From contig NZ_JNKO01000004.1 in the NCBI RefSeq assembly GCF_000702885.1, positions 1-64,000 on the forward strand: a stretch of DNA of 64,000 bases, written 5' to 3'. The notes beneath the pieces were generated by a model that was given only the letters and a program-made list of their open reading frames with translations, was not told where the DNA came from and searched no databases. The DNA is from Oribacterium sp. P6A1. GTDB lineage: Bacteria > Bacillota > Clostridia > Lachnospirales > Lachnospiraceae. This document shows positions 2,915 through 25,971 of this stretch, piece after piece (within the stretch, counting starts at the first letter, position 1; each line of letters starts with the position of its first letter). Made by a program: the position numbers and the translations under genes.

Positions 2915-2991
2915 AGAACGCGCAGACAACAGTGCAATGATATAAGCATTAAATAAAAATGAAGTTGATTCGCTTGAAAGGGGATAATTCA

Positions 2992-4485
2992 ATGGAAAAA
3001 TTAAACTATCAGGTACTAGAGAAGTCAGGTTATCAGGGGTATATCCTTAAAGATGCACCCGTAAAGGTAATGCAGTTCGGTGAGGGAAACTTCCTCAGAG
3101 CCTTTGTTGATTATTGGTTCGATATGTCAAATGAGAAGGCAGGATGGAACGGAAAGGTTACTCTGGTACAGCCTATAGCCCAGGGACTTACTGAGCTTAT
3201 CAATGAGCAGGAAGGTCTTTATACACTTTATCTCCGTGGTTCCGAGAATGGTCAGAAGGTGAACAACAAGCGAGTTATATCATCTGTTAAAGATGCTATC
3301 AATCCTTATACCAAGGAAGGTTTTGCAGCTATGATCGAGCTCGCAAAGTCTGATGATCTTGAATATATCGTATCAAATACAACTGAGGCAGGAATCGTTT
3401 ATGATCCAGAGACAAAGTTTGATCAGGAGCCGCCTGTTTCCTTCCCAGGAAAAATGACAAAGGTACTTTATGAGAGATTTAAGGCAGGAAAATCCGGAGT
3501 TGTAGTTCTTTCATGTGAGCTTATCGATAATAACGGACAGGAGCTCAAGAAAATTGTCAAGCGCCATATAGATGAGTGGAATCTTGGAGCTGACTTTAAG
3601 AAGTGGGTAGACGATGAAGTTCTTTTCTGTTCAACACTTGTCGACAGAATCGTTCCTGGCCGTATTCGTGATCCGAAGGAAGTGGAAGAACTTGATAAGG
3701 AGAACGGTTACACAGATCCACTTACAGATGTTGGTGAGGTATTTGGTGTATGGTATATCGAGGGACCTAAGGAGCTTGAGGATAAGCTTCCTTTCAAGAA
3801 GGCAGGAGTAAATGTTCATGTTGTTCCGGAGGTAGCTCCATATAAGAAGAGAAAGGTTCGTATCCTTAACGGTGCTCACACAGGTTTTGTACTCGGAGCT
3901 TATCTTGCAGGCTTTGATATCGTTCGTGACTGTATGCATGATGATGTAGTTAAGAATTATATGAACAAGATGCTTCAGGAAGAGATCATTCCTATTCTTC
4001 CGTTGGATAAGGCAGATTGCGAGAACTTTGCATCAGCTGTTGAGGATCGTTTTAATAATCCATTTGTTGATCATCAGCTTATGAGCATTTCTCTTAACTC
4101 CACTTCAAAGTGGAAAGCAAGAAATATGCCTTCACTTCTTGAGTATGCTGATAAGTTTGGAAAGCTTCCTGAGGTTCTTGCCATGAGCTTTGCTGCATAT
4201 ATCGCATTCTATAACAATGATGTACAGCGTCGTGAAGAGGATGGACTCATTTGCAAGCGTCCTGCAGGAAACGAATATAAGATCCAGGATGACAAGGAAG
4301 TTATAGATTTCTATGAGGCTCATAAGGATGATGATGTGAAGAGTCTTGTTCATGCAGTAATGACAAATGAGGAATTCTGGGGACAGGATCTTACAAAGGT
4401 TCTGGACTTTGAAGAAGTAACAGTAAAGAACCTTACTCTTATCAAGGAGCAGGGAGCTAAGGCTGCATACGCATCAGTACTATAA
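2992..4485 (+). CDS. uxaB: Tagaturonate reductase (altronate oxidoreductase)
   Basis: NAD-dependent reductase of the mannitol dehydrogenase family. It converts D-tagaturonate to D-altronate in galacturonate/pectin catabolism. The 497-residue protein has an N-terminal nucleotide-binding region (VMQFGEGNFLRAFVDYW) and the C-terminal catalytic domain with the family's KVRILNGAHTGFV lysine motif. The ATG at 2992 is preferred over an in-frame upstream ATG at 2959 because AAAGGGGAT lies at the right distance and family members start near MEKLNY. It is followed 30 bp later by uxaA, with which it forms an operon. Transcription is probably controlled by the cre-like operator upstream. Confidence 0.93.
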   Translation: MEKLNYQVLEKSGYQGYILKDAPVKVMQFGEGNFLRAFVDYWFDMSNEKAGWNGKVTLVQPIAQGLTELINEQEGLYTLYLRGSENGQKVNNKRVISSVKDAINPYTKEGFAAMIELAKSDDLEYIVSNTTEAGIVYDPETKFDQEPPVSFPGKMTKVLYERFKAGKSGVVVLSCELIDNNGQELKKIVKRHIDEWNLGADFKKWVDDEVLFCSTLVDRIVPGRIRDPKEVEELDKENGYTDPLTDVGEVFGVWYIEGPKELEDKLPFKKAGVNVHVVPEVAPYKKRKVRILNGAHTGFVLGAYLAGFDIVRDCMHDDVVKNYMNKMLQEEIIPILPLDKADCENFASAVEDRFNNPFVDHQLMSISLNSTSKWKARNMPSLLEYADKFGKLPEVLAMSFAAYIAFYNNDVQRREEDGLICKRPAGNEYKIQDDKEVIDFYEAHKDDDVKSLVHAVMTNEEFWGQDLTKVLDFEEVTVKNLTLIKEQGAKAAYASVL

Positions 4486-4515
4486 TGAAAGGAAACCTTC
4501 TTAGGGAAAAGAAAT

Positions 4516-6006
4516 ATGGCCAGAGCACAGGTAGTACATATCAATCCGGAGGATAATGTTGTGGTTGCCATCGCACCTATAGCAAAGGGCGACGAGATCA
4601 GAACCAGAGACATTGATATAACAGCAATCGAGGATATTCCCCAGGGACATAAGGTAGCGGTAAAGCCGATTCCCAAAGATGAGCAGGTAATAAAATATGG
4701 TGTGTCCATAGGACACACCACTGAAGATGTTAAAGCGGGACAATGGGTTCATACACATGACATGAAAACGAATTTAAGCGGAGAAGTAGTGTATACCTAT
4801 AATCCTGCGGTACCGGGAAAAACAGAGATGCCGGTGGAAACATTTGAAGGGTATGTAAGACCTGATGGAAAAGTAGGAACACGTAATGAAATATGGATCA
4901 TACCTACCGTTGGATGTGTAAATGATGTGGCAAAGCATCTTGTGGAAATGAATCAGGATCTGGTAAAGGGTTCTATAGACGGACTTTATACATACACTCA
5001 TCCATTCGGATGCTCCCAGACAGGAGGAGATCATGCCCAGACACGTAAGATACTGGCTGATCTGGTTCGTCATGCCAATGCAGGAGCAGTTCTTGTTCTG
5101 TCATTGGGCTGCGAAAATCTTACCCACGAACAGTTTTTGAAGGAACTTGGTGAATATGACCCCCACAGAGTAAAGTTTCTTACCTGCCAGGAAGTTGAGG
5201 ATGAATTTGAAGCCGGATCTGCACTCTTACGTGAGCTTGCGGAATATGCATCAAAATTCAAGAGGGAGACCGTTGGTATCGACAAGCTGGTTCTCGGAAT
5301 GAAGTGTGGTGGATCAGACGGACTTTCCGGAATAACCGCAAACCCTACAGTAGGCAGAGTTTCGGATATGGTAGTAGCCCAGGGAGGAACCACTATACTT
5401 ACAGAGGTTCCGGAGATGTTTGGTGCTGAAAGCATGCTTATGGACAGATGTGTAAATGAAGAGGTCTTCGATAAGGCATCCGCCATGCTTAACGGATTCA
5501 AGGATTATTTTATAAGCCATAATGAGGTGGTATATGATAATCCGTCACCGGGAAATAAAGAGGGTGGTATAACTACATTGGAAGACAAATCCTGCGGTTG
5601 TGTCCAGAAGGGCGGAAAGGCTGCAATTTCAGATGTACTTTCCTATGGTGAAGAAGTTCATACAAAGGGGCTTAATCTTTTATACGGACCAGGAAATGAC
5701 CTTGTCTCAAGTACGAACCTCACAGCTGCCGGATGTACAGTGATTCTGTTCACAACAGGAAGAGGAACCCCTTTCGGTTCTCCTGCACCGGTAGCAAAGA
5801 TAGCCACCAACGATAAGCTTGCTGAGAAGAAAAGGAATTGGATCGATTTTAATGCAGGTCCGGTTGCATCTCAGGGAGAATCCATAGATGATGCAGGAAG
5901 AAGACTCTTTGATTTTGTAAAGGAAATAGCTTCAGGAAAGCAGACTCAGGCTGAAAAGCACGGATTCAGAGAAATCTCCATATTTAAGGATGGAGTAGTT
6001 TTATAA
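4516..6006 (+). CDS. uxaA: Altronate dehydratase
   Basis: Iron-dependent hydro-lyase converting D-altronate to 2-keto-3-deoxygluconate. The product joins the pathway to pyruvate and glyceraldehyde-3-phosphate through KdgK and KdgA, not found here. The 496-residue length matches full UxaA. An N-terminal SAF-like domain (about 1-95) is followed by the catalytic part, with conserved segments DGKVGTRNEIWIIPTVGC, HPFGCSQTGGDH, LGCEN and MKCGGSDGLSGITANP. The cysteines in these are the likely metal ligands. Same operon as uxaB. A strong terminator follows. Confidence 0.95.
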   Translation: MARAQVVHINPEDNVVVAIAPIAKGDEIRTRDIDITAIEDIPQGHKVAVKPIPKDEQVIKYGVSIGHTTEDVKAGQWVHTHDMKTNLSGEVVYTYNPAVPGKTEMPVETFEGYVRPDGKVGTRNEIWIIPTVGCVNDVAKHLVEMNQDLVKGSIDGLYTYTHPFGCSQTGGDHAQTRKILADLVRHANAGAVLVLSLGCENLTHEQFLKELGEYDPHRVKFLTCQEVEDEFEAGSALLRELAEYASKFKRETVGIDKLVLGMKCGGSDGLSGITANPTVGRVSDMVVAQGGTTILTEVPEMFGAESMLMDRCVNEEVFDKASAMLNGFKDYFISHNEVVYDNPSPGNKEGGITTLEDKSCGCVQKGGKAAISDVLSYGEEVHTKGLNLLYGPGNDLVSSTNLTAAGCTVILFTTGRGTPFGSPAPVAKIATNDKLAEKKRNWIDFNAGPVASQGESIDDAGRRLFDFVKEIASGKQTQAEKHGFREISIFKDGVVL

Positions 6007-19370: not shown

Positions 19371-20057
19371 ATGGAGCACTTCACCGAGGAACTCCAGGAA
19401 CAGCTGCAGGTTTCAACCGCGTTTACTGTTCCGGTGTTCGGAGGAATACAAGTCGCCGAGTCAACGGTTATCACATGGGTCATCATGGCGGTACTCGCTG
19501 CGTTGTCGGTTTATCTCGGGTCAAATCTTAAAGTCAGAAATCCGGGTAAGCGTCAGCAGCTGGCAGAGATGATAGTCACATGGTTCGATAGCTTCACCGG
19601 AGAACTTCTCGGAGAACACGGAAAGCAGTACAGTACAATCATTTCCGTTATTCTCATCTACATCGGATTTTCAAATGTTATCGGGCTTTTTGGATTGAAG
19701 CCCCCAACAAAGGATCTTAACGTGACAGTTGGCCTTTCGCTTATCAGTATCTTCCTTATCGAGATCGCAGGATTCAGGAAGAAGGGAGCAAAGGGCTGGG
19801 TAAAACATTTTTCGGAGCCGGTAGCCATAGTTACTCCGATCAATATTTTGGAGCTTGTTATCAGACCTTTGTCACTGTGTATGAGATTGTTCGGTAATGT
19901 ACTTGGTGCGTTTATCATTATGGAGCTTATCAAGATGGTGGTTCCTGTAGGTATTCCTGCCATCTTCAGTCTTTATTTTGATATTTTCGACGGACTCATC
20001 CAGGCATATGTATTTGTTTTCCTGACATCACTTTATATTCAGGATGCAACAGAATAA
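19371..20057 (+). CDS. atpB: ATP synthase Fo subunit a
   Basis: Membrane stator subunit that forms the ion half-channels facing the c-ring. The 228-residue protein has the expected hydrophobic helices. The essential arginine is Arg172 in LCMRLFGNVLGA, and the last helices contain DGLIQAYVFVFLTSLYI. AATGGAGG upstream fixes the ATG at 19371. First gene of the atp operon, which runs a, c, b, delta-alpha fusion, gamma, beta, epsilon. Confidence 0.96.
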   Translation: MEHFTEELQEQLQVSTAFTVPVFGGIQVAESTVITWVIMAVLAALSVYLGSNLKVRNPGKRQQLAEMIVTWFDSFTGELLGEHGKQYSTIISVILIYIGFSNVIGLFGLKPPTKDLNVTVGLSLISIFLIEIAGFRKKGAKGWVKHFSEPVAIVTPINILELVIRPLSLCMRLFGNVLGAFIIMELIKMVVPVGIPAIFSLYFDIFDGLIQAYVFVFLTSLYIQDATE

Positions 20058-20110: not shown

Positions 20111-20332
20111 ATGAGCATGACAGCTATTGGTGTAGGTTTAGCAGCACTTGCATGTTTAGGAGCAGGTCTTTCAATCGGTATCGCAACAGGTAAGGCAGCA
20201 GAGGCAATCGCAAGACAGCCTGAGGCTGATGGTAAGATCATGAGAATCCTTCTTCTTGGTTGTGCACTTGCCGAGGCAACTGCAATTTACGGATTCGTTC
20301 TTGGTATCCTGTGCATTTTCTTCCTTAAATAA
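20111..20332 (+). CDS. atpE: ATP synthase Fo subunit c
   Basis: The 73-residue two-helix proteolipid forms the rotor ring. The polar loop RQPE (36-39) contacts gamma/epsilon and the ion-carrying carboxylate is Glu55 in CALAEATAIYG. Compared with the Na+-type ring of Ilyobacter tartaricus, the Gln32 ligand is replaced by Ile and the Ser after the glutamate by Ala, so the full Na+ coordination set is missing. I infer proton coupling. AAGGAG upstream is strong, as expected for a subunit needed in many copies. Confidence 0.96.
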   Translation: MSMTAIGVGLAALACLGAGLSIGIATGKAAEAIARQPEADGKIMRILLLGCALAEATAIYGFVLGILCIFFLK

Positions 20333-20375: not shown

Positions 20376-20882
20376 ATGTTAAGAGTAGATATTAATTTAT
20401 TGTTTACTATCATTAATCTGCTGGTACTTGTTTTTCTTATGAAGAAGTTCCTTTTCGGACCTATCCGTGTTGTGATCGAGAAGCGTCAGGCTGAGATCGA
20501 GGAGTCTTATAAGAAGGCCGAGGATACAAATCAGGCTGCCAAGGAGCTTAAGGCGAAGTATGAAGAAGGTCTCAACAATATCGAGGAAGAACGTAAGCAG
20601 ACCATCAATGATGCAAAGATTGAAGCTTCAAAGGAATACGATGAAATCGTAAATAATGCCAATAAGAAAGCAGATAAGATTCTTGCAGATGCAAAGCTTC
20701 AGGCAGCGAAGGAAGCCGAGACAAAGCAGCGTGAGATGCAGCAGCAGATGGCTGTTCTCGTAGCAGAGGCTGCTTATAAGATTGCAGCTTCACAGGACAG
20801 TGCGGCAAATGACAAGAATCTGTTCGATCAGTTCCTCAGCAGTAACAGCCAGCCAACCAACAAGAATGATCAGGAGGCATAA
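20376..20882 (+). CDS. atpF: ATP synthase Fo subunit b
   Basis: Peripheral stalk subunit with one N-terminal membrane helix (about 5-25), then a long charged coiled coil rich in Lys, Glu and Ala (about 30-145) that reaches up to F1. Length 168 residues is normal. The stop codon lies two bases before the GTG of the fused delta-alpha gene, whose ribosome binding site CAGGAGG lies inside the end of atpF, so translation is coupled. Confidence 0.95.
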   Translation: MLRVDINLLFTIINLLVLVFLMKKFLFGPIRVVIEKRQAEIEESYKKAEDTNQAAKELKAKYEEGLNNIEEERKQTINDAKIEASKEYDEIVNNANKKADKILADAKLQAAKEAETKQREMQQQMAVLVAEAAYKIAASQDSAANDKNLFDQFLSSNSQPTNKNDQEA

Positions 20883-20884
20883 TA

Positions 20885-22936
20885 GTGAGTCAGAATGCCA
20901 GAGAAATAGCAGAACGTCTGATTCAGTTGCAGGTTTCAGCAAGTGTGATCAAAGCTACTTCACGTATATTTGAAGTATTGCCCCAGACCGCATCCCAGCT
21001 CAGTGATCCGACTATAGATTTAGCAAAGCGAAATGAGGTAGTCGACAGTGTGTTCCCTACAGAAGTGAGAGGAATACTGAAAGAACTGTGTGACGAAAAC
21101 AAGCTTTCTATGTGGCAGGAGATTGCTGATCAGTATAAGAGTATACGTGCAAATGCTGAAAAACAGCTCCATGTGCAGCTCAGATATGTAACCAGACCTT
21201 CTGAAAAGCAGCTTTTGGATATACAGAAGTTTGTATTTGATAAATATAATACTCATCATTTTGAGTTTGATATGACAGAGGATAAGAGTTTAGGCGGCGG
21301 ATTTATCCTCGAAGTCGGAAATGACCAGTATGACTGGTCCACCAGCGGAAGAAGAAACCAGTTCCTTGAGCAGCTTAAAGTTACCCGCTCAGGACTTACA
21401 AGTGATGTGGATATCCTTACCATACTTCAGCAGAGTGTCAATAACTTTGACCTGAAGGCAGAGAAGAAGGAAATCGGTTTCATCGAAAGCATAGGTGACG
21501 GTATCGCCATAGTAAACGGACTTGATCATGCCATGTATGGTGAAGTCATAGCCTTTGACAACGGTACAAAGGGAATGGTTCAGAACATCGAGAGAGACAG
21601 AATCGGTGTTATCCTTTTCGGCGATGAAGCAGGACTCGGAGAGGGAAGCAGAGGTATACGTACAGGACGTATGGCAGGTATCGGTGTTTCCGATGATTAT
21701 CTGGGAAGAGTTGTGGATGCTCTCGGAAATCCTATAGACGGTCTTGGCGGTATCAATGAGGTTGAGTACAGACCTATAGAGCAGCCTGCTCCCGGAATCA
21801 TAGACCGTCAGCCGGTTAATGAACCTATGCAGACAGGTATCCTTGCCATTGACTCCATGTTCCCTATAGGAAGAGGACAGCGTGAGCTCATCATCGGAGA
21901 CCGTCAGACAGGTAAGACTTCCATAGCTCTTGATACCATACTTAATCAGCATGATAAGAATTGTATATGTATCTATGTAGCAATAGGACAAAAGGAGTCA
22001 ACCGTAGCAGCATTGGTTGAGACCTTGAGAAAACATGATGCCATGAAGTATACCTGCGTAGTGGCAGCCACAGCGGCTGATCCTGCGCCTATTCAGTACA
22101 TAGCACCATATTCTGCAACATCGCTTGCCGAGTATTTTATGTATAAGGGACATGATGTACTTATCGTTTATGACGATCTTTCAAAGCATGCGGTAGCTTA
22201 CAGAGCACTTTCTCTGCTTCTCGGACGTTCACCGGGGCGTGAAGCATATCCAGGAGATGTATTCTATCTCCACTCAAGACTTCTTGAGCGTTCATGCCAT
22301 CTTAATGATAAGCTGGGCGGAGGATCCATAACGGCCCTTCCTATCATTGAAACACAGGATGGAGATGTTTCAGCATATATTCCTACCAATGTTATTTCCA
22401 TAACAGACGGTCAGATTTTCCTTGAGTCAAATCTTTTCTTCGAAGGTCAGCGTCCTGCGGTAAATGTAGGTCTTTCTGTTTCCCGAGTAGGTGGAGCAGC
22501 TCAGGCCAAGGCCATGAAGAAGGCTTCCGGATCACTTCGTATCGATCTTGCCCAGTACAGGGAAATGGCTGTATTCACACAGTTCTCTTCGGATCTTGAT
22601 CAGAATACCAGAGATCTTCTTACGCAGGGTAAGGTACTAATGGAGCTTTTGAAACAGCCATTGGGAGCACCAATGTCTCTTAGTGATCAGGTAATAACTC
22701 TTGTGGTTTCACTCAACCATAAGATGATGGATATCGAACCTAAGAGAGTGAAGGAATTCCAAGGAAAAATGCTTACATATTTTGCCCAGAGATATCCGGA
22801 GATTGGTAAAAATATCGAGATTTCAAGACTTCTCGGTGATGATTCAAAGAATCAGATCCTTAATGTGGCAGATGAATTTAAGCGTCTTTGGGATGAAAAA
22901 GACGGACATTTTGAACTTTCTGAGGAAGAAAAGTGA
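20885..22936 (+). CDS. atpHA: Fused ATP synthase F1 delta-alpha subunit
   Basis: One uninterrupted 683-residue frame encodes delta (about 1-168) and alpha (about 172-683), normally two genes. The delta part ends with the family's C-terminal motif (DKSLGGGFILEVGNDQYD) and a helix. After a linker of only a few residues, the alpha N-terminal helix begins at SDVDILTILQQSV. Alpha is complete: Walker A GDRQTGKT (338-345), Walker B VLIVYDD and the arginine finger Arg534 in SVSRVGG. The start is GTG at 20885 with CAGGAGG upstream. No in-frame ATG with a ribosome binding site exists near the junction; a GTG at 21407 (residue 175) has only a weak one. Alpha is present three times per F1 but delta once, so the fusion raises a stoichiometry problem. 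Confidence 0.93.
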   Translation: MSQNAREIAERLIQLQVSASVIKATSRIFEVLPQTASQLSDPTIDLAKRNEVVDSVFPTEVRGILKELCDENKLSMWQEIADQYKSIRANAEKQLHVQLRYVTRPSEKQLLDIQKFVFDKYNTHHFEFDMTEDKSLGGGFILEVGNDQYDWSTSGRRNQFLEQLKVTRSGLTSDVDILTILQQSVNNFDLKAEKKEIGFIESIGDGIAIVNGLDHAMYGEVIAFDNGTKGMVQNIERDRIGVILFGDEAGLGEGSRGIRTGRMAGIGVSDDYLGRVVDALGNPIDGLGGINEVEYRPIEQPAPGIIDRQPVNEPMQTGILAIDSMFPIGRGQRELIIGDRQTGKTSIALDTILNQHDKNCICIYVAIGQKESTVAALVETLRKHDAMKYTCVVAATAADPAPIQYIAPYSATSLAEYFMYKGHDVLIVYDDLSKHAVAYRALSLLLGRSPGREAYPGDVFYLHSRLLERSCHLNDKLGGGSITALPIIETQDGDVSAYIPTNVISITDGQIFLESNLFFEGQRPAVNVGLSVSRVGGAAQAKAMKKASGSLRIDLAQYREMAVFTQFSSDLDQNTRDLLTQGKVLMELLKQPLGAPMSLSDQVITLVVSLNHKMMDIEPKRVKEFQGKMLTYFAQRYPEIGKNIEISRLLGDDSKNQILNVADEFKRLWDEKDGHFELSEEEK

Positions 22937-23008: not shown

Positions 23009-23920
23009 GTGGCAACCATAAGAGAACTGCGAGACAGAATCTCGAGTATTGATAATACTTTAAAAATCACAAATGCCATGTATCTTATCTCCAGCACGAA
23101 GCTTCGTAAAGCAAAGATGGAACTTCAGCAGACTGAGCCTTACTTTTACACACTTCAGACCATGATTCAGAGAATTCTAAGGCATTTGCCTGAAGATTTC
23201 ACTCATCCGTATCTTGATCTCAGAGAGAATCTTCGTGAAACTGTGGATCCGTCTGATTACCGCACCGCAATAATCTGTGTTACTGCAGATAAGGGGCTTG
23301 CGGGAGCATACAATCATAATGTTATAAAGCGTACAGAGGAGCTTCTCAAAGAGAGACCAAAGCACAGGTTATATGTGGTCGGTGAAATGGGACGAGTTTA
23401 TTTTCGTACAAGTGGTGTAGATGTAGATGAGCAGTTCCATTACACAGCTCAAAATCCGACATTGCATAGAGCCAGAGTTATAACAGGAAGAATGCTGGAT
23501 CTATTTCAGGAGGATAAAATCGATTCCGTTTATATCGTATATACGAGAATGAAAAATTCTCTTGAGATGGTAACAGAGACGGAACAGCTTCTTCCTATAG
23601 ATAAGATCAATGGCGGAATACTGGGCAATAATCAGATACCCATGGTGGCAGGAATGGAGGATTTCAGACTTCGTCCCACACCTAAGGCAATTATCGACAA
23701 TGTTATCCCTGACTACATCAATGGTTTTATATACAGTGCGCTGGTTGAGTCCTTCTGTTCAGAGCAGAATGCCAGAATGACTGCCATGGATGCTGCCAAT
23801 CGAAGCGGTAACAAGCTTAGACAGGAGCTGAGCATTCAGTACAACAGAACACGTCAGGCTGCCATCACCCAGGAAATAACGGAGATAGCAGCCGGAGCAA
23901 GAGCACAGAAAAAACGATAA
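23009..23920 (+). CDS. atpG: ATP synthase F1 subunit gamma
   Basis: Central rotor stalk subunit, 303 residues. The conserved N-terminal helix IRELRDRISSIDNTLKITNAM and the C-terminal helix (ALVESFCSEQNARMTAMDAA followed by NKLRQELSIQYNRTRQAAIT) form the coiled coil inside the alpha3-beta3 hexamer. The start is GTG at 23009. It is slightly longer than many bacterial gammas. It follows the perfect hairpin in the 72-bp gap after atpHA. Confidence 0.95.
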   Translation: MATIRELRDRISSIDNTLKITNAMYLISSTKLRKAKMELQQTEPYFYTLQTMIQRILRHLPEDFTHPYLDLRENLRETVDPSDYRTAIICVTADKGLAGAYNHNVIKRTEELLKERPKHRLYVVGEMGRVYFRTSGVDVDEQFHYTAQNPTLHRARVITGRMLDLFQEDKIDSVYIVYTRMKNSLEMVTETEQLLPIDKINGGILGNNQIPMVAGMEDFRLRPTPKAIIDNVIPDYINGFIYSALVESFCSEQNARMTAMDAANRSGNKLRQELSIQYNRTRQAAITQEITEIAAGARAQKKR

Positions 23921-23983: not shown

Positions 23984-25438
<1,455 letters not shown>

Positions 25439-25545: not shown

Positions 25546-25971
25546 ATGGCAGTAACACCAACGTTCAGCCTGAAGGTAATAGCTTCAAATAAGGTCTTTT
25601 ATGATGGACCCGCAGAATATCTGCAGGTTATTACACTTACCGGTTCACGTGGATTTATGGCGCATCATGCACCATGTATAGTTGCCGTAGAGACCGGTAC
25701 CATGAGTATAGTGAAGCCGGGAGGAGAAAGAGAGACCGTTGTAGTAAGCGGAGGAATCTGTTCCTGTGCCAACAACAGACTTACGGTTCTTGTAGATACC
25801 TGTGAAACAGCTGACGAGATCGACGTAAGAAGAGCCGAAGAAGCAAAAGAAAGAGCTTTGGAACAGCTGAGGCAGAAACAATCAGTGGGCGAATACAAGA
25901 TGACTCAGTCATCCCTGGCCCGCGCCCTGACCCGACTGGAATTCTCAAGTCAGAAGAAACACTATATTTGA
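25546..25971 (+). CDS. atpC: ATP synthase F1 subunit epsilon
   Basis: The 141-residue rotor subunit has the N-terminal beta-sandwich (about 1-90, with GSRGFMAHHAPCIVAVETG) and a C-terminal two-helix region (RRAEEAKERALEQLRQ) that can inhibit ATP hydrolysis. Last gene of the operon. The 107-bp gap to atpD has no recognisable terminator. An elaborate inverted-repeat element begins five bases after the stop codon. Confidence 0.94.
   Translation: MAVTPTFSLKVIASNKVFYDGPAEYLQVITLTGSRGFMAHHAPCIVAVETGTMSIVKPGGERETVVVSGGICSCANNRLTVLVDTCETADEIDVRRAEEAKERALEQLRQKQSVGEYKMTQSSLARALTRLEFSSQKKHYI

Follow-up and report, generated by a model that had tools for sequence, protein, structure and literature searches.

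Fusions of delta to alpha have been described in a truncated form, both engineered and natural. In the FoF1 of Bacillus PS3, the C-terminal domain of delta was fused to alpha (Ueno et al. 2025, PMC12229609; PDB 9jc1), and in the excerpted text of that article this deltaDN-alpha enzyme carries up to three stalks and a-subunits, has an H+/ATP ratio of 5.8 versus 3.0, and makes ATP from weaker ion gradients. The same excerpts state that the delta N-domain restricts the wild type to one stalk, and that a natural fusion devoid of the N-domain exists in Acidaminococcus fermentans, with similar proteins in UniProt entries G4Q3K6 and A0A1I2C5T3 (PMC12229609).

The gene studied here occupies positions 20885..22936 of the window, that is, of the whole 64,000 nucleotide long stretch of DNA analysed from Oribacterium sp. 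P6A1. Like the engineered PS3 enzyme, its frame joins the delta C-domain to the N-terminus of alpha; the engineered chain, as far as the excerpts describe it, is without the delta N-domain and accompanied by a truncated epsilon, whereas the window gene keeps the N-domain. The N-domain is absent from 45 relatives of the gene (termed T2 below). The A. fermentans, G4Q3K6 and A0A1I2C5T3 fusions, compared by their description in the same excerpts, share this T2 architecture and lack the domain that is present in the window, and T2 is in this sense already known in kind (PMC12229609). The sequence-only reading of this DNA missed this engineered, partly natural counterpart, published in 2025. According to the excerpts, the multi-stalk state is demonstrated for the engineered PS3 enzyme, while the window enzyme is known from its genes. 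Neither the full-length fusion (T1), its breadth and the repeated conversion of T1 to T2, nor two longer forms, b'-deltaC-alpha and deltaC-deltaC-alpha, were found in searches of open-licence PMC full text.

The nearest unfused alphas, 62-69% identical to that of the window, belong to F-ATPases of lineage B (T0B), which in the loci shown have the same a-c-b-delta-alpha order as the window but separate delta and alpha genes. In the b-delta fusion of mycobacteria, one delta per enzyme is kept. This fusion (NCBIfam PRK13428; mentioned also in the excerpted text of PMC5709465) is, like that in the window, natural and involves delta, but the partner of delta there is the stalk subunit b, which in the window is encoded by a separate gene at 20376-20882.

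The fused gene and its operon

The fused gene is a single 683-codon frame on the forward strand, begun by GTG and interrupted by no stop codon before the terminal one. Its Shine-Dalgarno (SD) sequence AGGAGG (20872..20877, +) lies within the end of atpF, 7 nt upstream of the GTG. In the 50 codons inspected around the junction of the two subunits, frames +1 and +2 contain one and five stops, respectively. The delta part matches PF00213 (OSCP/delta) at aa 12-163 with 67.5 bits against a gathering cut-off of 22.3, covering model positions 16-171 of 172, and the alpha part matches TIGR00962 (F-type alpha) at aa 176-667 with 726.8 bits against 484.45, covering positions 6-499 of 503; the three alpha Pfam domains are located within aa 196-665. 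Both subunits are thus complete, as had been claimed.

In the AlphaFold2 model of the window protein (pLDDT 85.9), the delta N-terminal domain (20888..21157, +, aa 2-91) is predicted to form a six-helix bundle. A profile of this domain, in which the window sequence is itself one row, matches it with E 1.2e-31 in its own genome. The alpha/beta C-terminal domain of delta, which docks the stalk, extends over 21167..21391 (+, aa 95-169) as judged from Pfam, the model and the alignment. The final delta helix reaches aa 169 and the N-terminal helix of alpha (21413..22933, +) spans aa 177-186; between them is a short linker (21392..21412, +, aa 170-176), with pLDDT below 50 at aa 171-176. A model of the T2 relative L184 reached pLDDT 78.3. 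For both models, Foldseek places 9jc1_I, the engineered deltaDN-alpha chain, first among PDB entries, aligned throughout deltaC and alpha with TM-scores by target of 0.90 (T1, 583 columns) and 0.89 (T2, 567 columns); by sequence the same chain ranks third, matching aa 100-657 of the window protein (E 2.4e-182). Both models are monomers and silent on the number of stalks. The earlier description of two subunits fused in one frame by a linker of a few residues, at a structurally sensible junction, agrees with these results.

The operon is otherwise normal, with the order a-c-b-[delta-alpha]-gamma-beta-epsilon on the forward strand. It comprises atpB for F0 subunit a (19371..20057; PF00119, 149.3 bits), atpE for F0 subunit c (20111..20332; PF00137, 60.3 bits), atpF for F0 subunit b (20376..20882), atpG for gamma (23009..23920; PF00231, 298.6 bits), atpD for beta (24026..25438; TIGR01039, 804 bits, with an ATG chosen inside the open frame 23984-25438) and atpC for epsilon (25546..25971; PF02823 and PF00401). 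Assignment to an N-ATPase or alternate F1F0, a type without a delta gene, was considered and rejected (alpha 594.2 bits against an alt_F1F0 cut-off of 750.5, beta 611 against 752, and delta is present). Subunit c carries the sequence LAEATAIYG, in which A follows the ion-binding Glu. Of the Na+ motif, Q, E, T and Y are kept there, and the position after Glu, which is Ser in the motif, is the A.

The window genome is a draft in 95 contigs, 97.6% complete. It contains one delta match and one F1 alpha (E 1e-100 or better), both residing in the fused gene, and atpF is its sole PF00430 match; a second alpha or delta was sought elsewhere in the genome and none was found. Of the further PF00006 matches, one is the F1 beta, and the others resemble, by the length of their open frames, the A and B subunits of a V-type enzyme, FliI and Rho. 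The question raised by the sequence-only reading, how one fused delta per alpha can be accommodated in an F1 with three alphas and one delta, therefore stands, and a second gene offers no way out of it, barring an assembly gap. The genome appears to encode no other F-type ATP synthase, which makes this enzyme a good test case.

Fused genes in related genomes

A search with the fused protein through 397 genomes of the family, with listed matches down to E 3.6e-188, disclosed the fusion in at least 73 genomes from 68 genera. Full delta and alpha, as in the window (T1), are joined in 27 of them, the delta C-terminal domain alone is joined to alpha (T2) in 45, and one, L083, has a b-deltaC-alpha fusion (T3). 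Among the matches listed, F-ATPases of the family fall into two lineages. In the classical one, delta and alpha are separate and alphas are 53-59% identical to that of the window (22 rows examined), while in lineage B alphas show 57-78% identity and are either separate or fused. After removal of duplicates, 62 unfused lineage-B loci remained. Relatives with separate genes at this junction had been proposed as evidence against the fusion; the 62 loci are such relatives, yet the fusion is common to at least 73 genomes, and the survey of related Lachnospiraceae operons that had been recommended revealed how widespread it is, together with the truncated T2 forms, neither of which had been foreseen.

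The window genome being a draft, the frame could in principle be an artefact of assembly or annotation, with a missed stop or a frameshift between two genes. The junction is equally open in 27 T1 genomes, among them G391 (one contig) and the congener G178 (two contigs), and likewise in two named carriers, Lachnospiraceae GAM79 and Pseudobutyrivibrio xylanivorans DSM 14809. The same architecture in all of them excludes artefact or chance, to which we assign a negligible probability. Judged from these sequences, the window fusion is real, conserved and functional-looking.

Fused and unfused alphas can coexist. The fusion in G178, 72% identical to that of the window, is accompanied by a second, unfused alpha, and GAM79 and P. 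xylanivorans DSM 14809 each have an unfused alpha as well. Altogether, another alpha is present beside the fusion in 44 of the 73 genomes (partial frames in G042 and G129), and mixed assembly is possible there; the window genome as assembled is not one of them. No other F1 alpha (E 1e-100 or better) was detected in the remaining 29 genomes, 10 with T1 and 19 with T2 or T3, and 19 of these 29 are at least 95% complete. Two of them, G363 and G168, have a second delta match, so that another alpha may be missing from their assemblies. Outside the family, a class-wide search of 391 genomes yielded at least 25 fused loci (L261-L285), 6 with the N-domain and 19 without; in L285, one of the latter, the alpha frame is shortened.

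In the alpha tree, 72 fused rows (L110 left out) occupy one side of a branch opposite 12 chosen unfused rows, with a support of 85.6, and these 72 rows are compatible with a single clade. In a larger quick tree of 269 alphas, the distribution of fused and unfused states takes at least 12 changes, and presence of the N-domain among fused rows takes 13. This tree, in which several nodes are weak, suggests further origins of the fusion in L110, L209, L261-L266, L204, L279-L284 and L258. The sister of L209 is the unfused L208 (support 99), that of the L261-L266 group is the unfused L288 (support 100), and L066, L078 (both T2) and L102 (T1) are placed beside unfused rows. Given the support of 85.6, the weak nodes and the placement of L066, L078 and L102, the number of fusion origins is uncertain.

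The junction and the delta N-domain

The sequence-only reading offered three ways in which the cell could cope with a fused delta on every alpha: initiation of alpha inside the gene, cleavage of the product, or tolerance of two idle delta domains. If ribosomes also initiated at the junction, free alpha would be made, and one fused alpha would assemble with two free ones. Starts were evaluated in the 16 codons that correspond to the beginning of unfused alpha, an SD of -6 kcal/mol or better being taken as strong. All 62 unfused lineage-B genes have a start codon with a strong SD there, as do 13 of the 22 classical genes and 3 of the 73 fused ones; in control windows inside fused alpha frames the frequency is 8.2%. 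Any start codon at all is present in this place in 23 of the 73 fused genes, against 61% in controls, and 20 of the 73 have none even in a 42-codon window around the junction. L083 has an ATG with an SD of -7.7 a few codons past the junction; the single candidate at the window junction, an in-frame GTG at 21407 (+) within the linker, has a weak SD of -4.0 kcal/mol. The scarcity of strong junction starts in fused genes means that initiation inside the gene is not conserved, and on this comparison it is disfavoured; we regard it as very unlikely for the window. Among the 62 unfused lineage-B loci, the alpha frame differs from the delta frame in 54, and in 45 the delta stop and the start of GGAGG, the SD of alpha, are no more than 8 nt apart. 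Joining the two genes therefore takes a small shift of frame and eliminates the SD.

If the chain were cut after synthesis, delta and alpha would regain their ordinary form and the two deltas in excess would be disposed of. Non-specific cutting would be permitted by the linker, which is short and predicted to be disordered and varies among T1 proteins in both length and sequence. A specific protease site is unlikely, since no shared motif or conserved cleavage site was seen in the linkers of 27 aligned T1 sequences. Furthermore, a delta released in this way would still depend on its N-domain to keep the C-domain attached to F1, and this is the domain that has been repeatedly lost.

This loss is evident from the T2 loci, in which the fused gene adjoins atpF or overlaps with it and is not preceded by an N-domain. 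The possibility that T2 genomes encode the N-domain in a separate gene was discarded for fused-only genomes by profile search: none of the 19 T2/T3 genomes without another alpha contains a match to the T1 N-domain profile with E below 0.1, and the absence of such a copy is a further point against cleavage. T1 and T2 are interleaved on the alpha tree, where the T2 label takes 14 changes, at least 6 of them forced by well-supported branches. Forcing T2 (with T3) into one clade costs 243.8 log-likelihood units and is rejected (p-AU 0.00024). The trees argue for several losses of the delta N-domain once delta and alpha had been fused. Repeated loss is expected if fusion takes over the anchoring role of the domain and is hard to tolerate if the chain is cut; cleavage is on these indirect grounds disfavoured, and we consider it improbable.

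It was also considered whether the T1 N-domain is simply decaying, and relative distances do not support this in absolute terms. Scaled to alpha, the N-domain distance is 3.90 in T1 and 4.76 in unfused relatives, that is, slower in T1, and the C-domain distance is 2.78 versus 4.09. The N/C ratio is raised in T1 (1.40 versus 1.17), a value reached in 1 of 500 label shuffles. A dN/dS comparison of the window with its congener was abandoned, dS being saturated or not computable. The reading that remains comes close to the third way out, tolerated extra deltas, but the T1 N-domain is not decaying, and it may be a mistake to regard the additional N-domains as idle.

Stalk number and longer fusions

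We consider it likely that the delta-alpha chain stays intact and is present in three copies per F1, each alpha with its own delta docking domain. The frame would be translated into one polypeptide of about 75 kDa whose parts remain joined, placing three delta moieties on F1, one on each alpha N-terminus. Every delta C-domain, riding on its own alpha, would then be a docking site for a b2 stalk, while the single seat on the three-fold axis would leave room for only one delta N-domain. Fusion would make anchoring by the N-domain largely redundant, which may be why relatives repeatedly deleted it. By analogy, T2 relatives would be similar to the engineered deltaDN-alpha enzyme and have as many as three stalks and a-subunits. 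The T1 form in the window is, from the sequences compared, probably ancestral to the delta-alpha fusions, or an intermediate, and its enzyme would have at least one stalk and possibly more.

The same intact fusion is also the core of a narrower alternative, in which the seated N-domain blocks the others and the enzyme has strictly one stalk, the two remaining deltas being idle or bracing the head. The excerpted text of PMC12229609 attributes the limit of one stalk to the N-domain on the axis, and the window keeps this domain under constraint. Three N-domains competing for one seat would, however, leave two delta C-domains exposed for b, and the repeated loss of the N-domain suggests that the single-stalk limit is not essential. 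Strict restriction to one stalk is possible, although we lean away from it.

A broader extension of the intact-chain reading is put forward tentatively, as a possibility that we consider somewhat less likely than not. Multi-stalk F-type ATP synthases would be common in gut Clostridia, with the delta-alpha fusion evolved several times and T1 as a stepping stone from which the N-domain enforcing one stalk was repeatedly discarded. The resulting two or three stalks and a-subunits would bring the H+/ATP ratio into a range that fits a low ion-motive force, and L258 would be covalently three-stalked. In rumen butyrivibrios, energy conservation by Rnf and Ech ion pumps is predicted in the excerpted text of PMC4478896; carriers in this group include P. 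xylanivorans (T1) and two Butyrivibrio MAGs (T2), and we infer that a high ion-to-ATP ratio could pay in such a setting. A widespread natural series running from separate genes through full and truncated to b-linked fusions would allow a direct test of whether nature alters the ion-to-ATP ratio via stalk number rather than c-ring size.

In several loci the fusion is extended further. L258, on a single contig of a Ruminococcaceae MAG, has b at 2992-3462 followed by a 753-codon b'-deltaC-alpha frame at 3452-5710, which would oblige each alpha to carry a stalk strand. In L083, also on a single contig (G068), a 787-codon b-deltaC-alpha frame at 2973-5333 provides the sole b and the sole F1 alpha found in that genome, an arrangement hard to reconcile with b2 dimers. 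A tandem deltaC-deltaC-alpha is encoded at 2402-4408 of L196, a single MAG contig, and its b (1720-2424) carries a C-terminal YDxxL motif twice. Forms such as b'-deltaC-alpha and deltaC-deltaC-alpha can be made sense of only as chains whose domains remain together, which supports the intact fusion. As a general marker the b motif was dropped as not discriminating and kept only for L196; one copy is present in 17 of 27 T1, 24 of 45 T2, 23 of 62 T0B and 0 of 22 T0A loci.

Some further peculiarities were observed in these loci. In L297 (1962-3587) and L298 (2929-4545), alpha comes right after b with a leader of about 43 codons, and a recognisable delta is absent between b and alpha at the locus; both are nested among T2 rows with weak support. 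The T2 fusion L270 (2770-4686) has an N-terminal extension built of near-identical repeats of about 21 aa, MNEMSDNEFRSRVASATNGVA. In a T2 subclade (L076, L080-L082, L084-L090 and L092-L101), subunit c is extended at its N-terminus by a segment of some 45-60 residues that resembles a signal peptide, and has an ion site of the ETAIIYA type, with ETVVIYA and ETLVIYA in single loci; L091 and the triple fusion L083 have an ordinary subunit c. In the unfused lineage B, L107, L149, L160, L162, L163 and L165 each contain two subunit c frames, identical or near-identical to one another.
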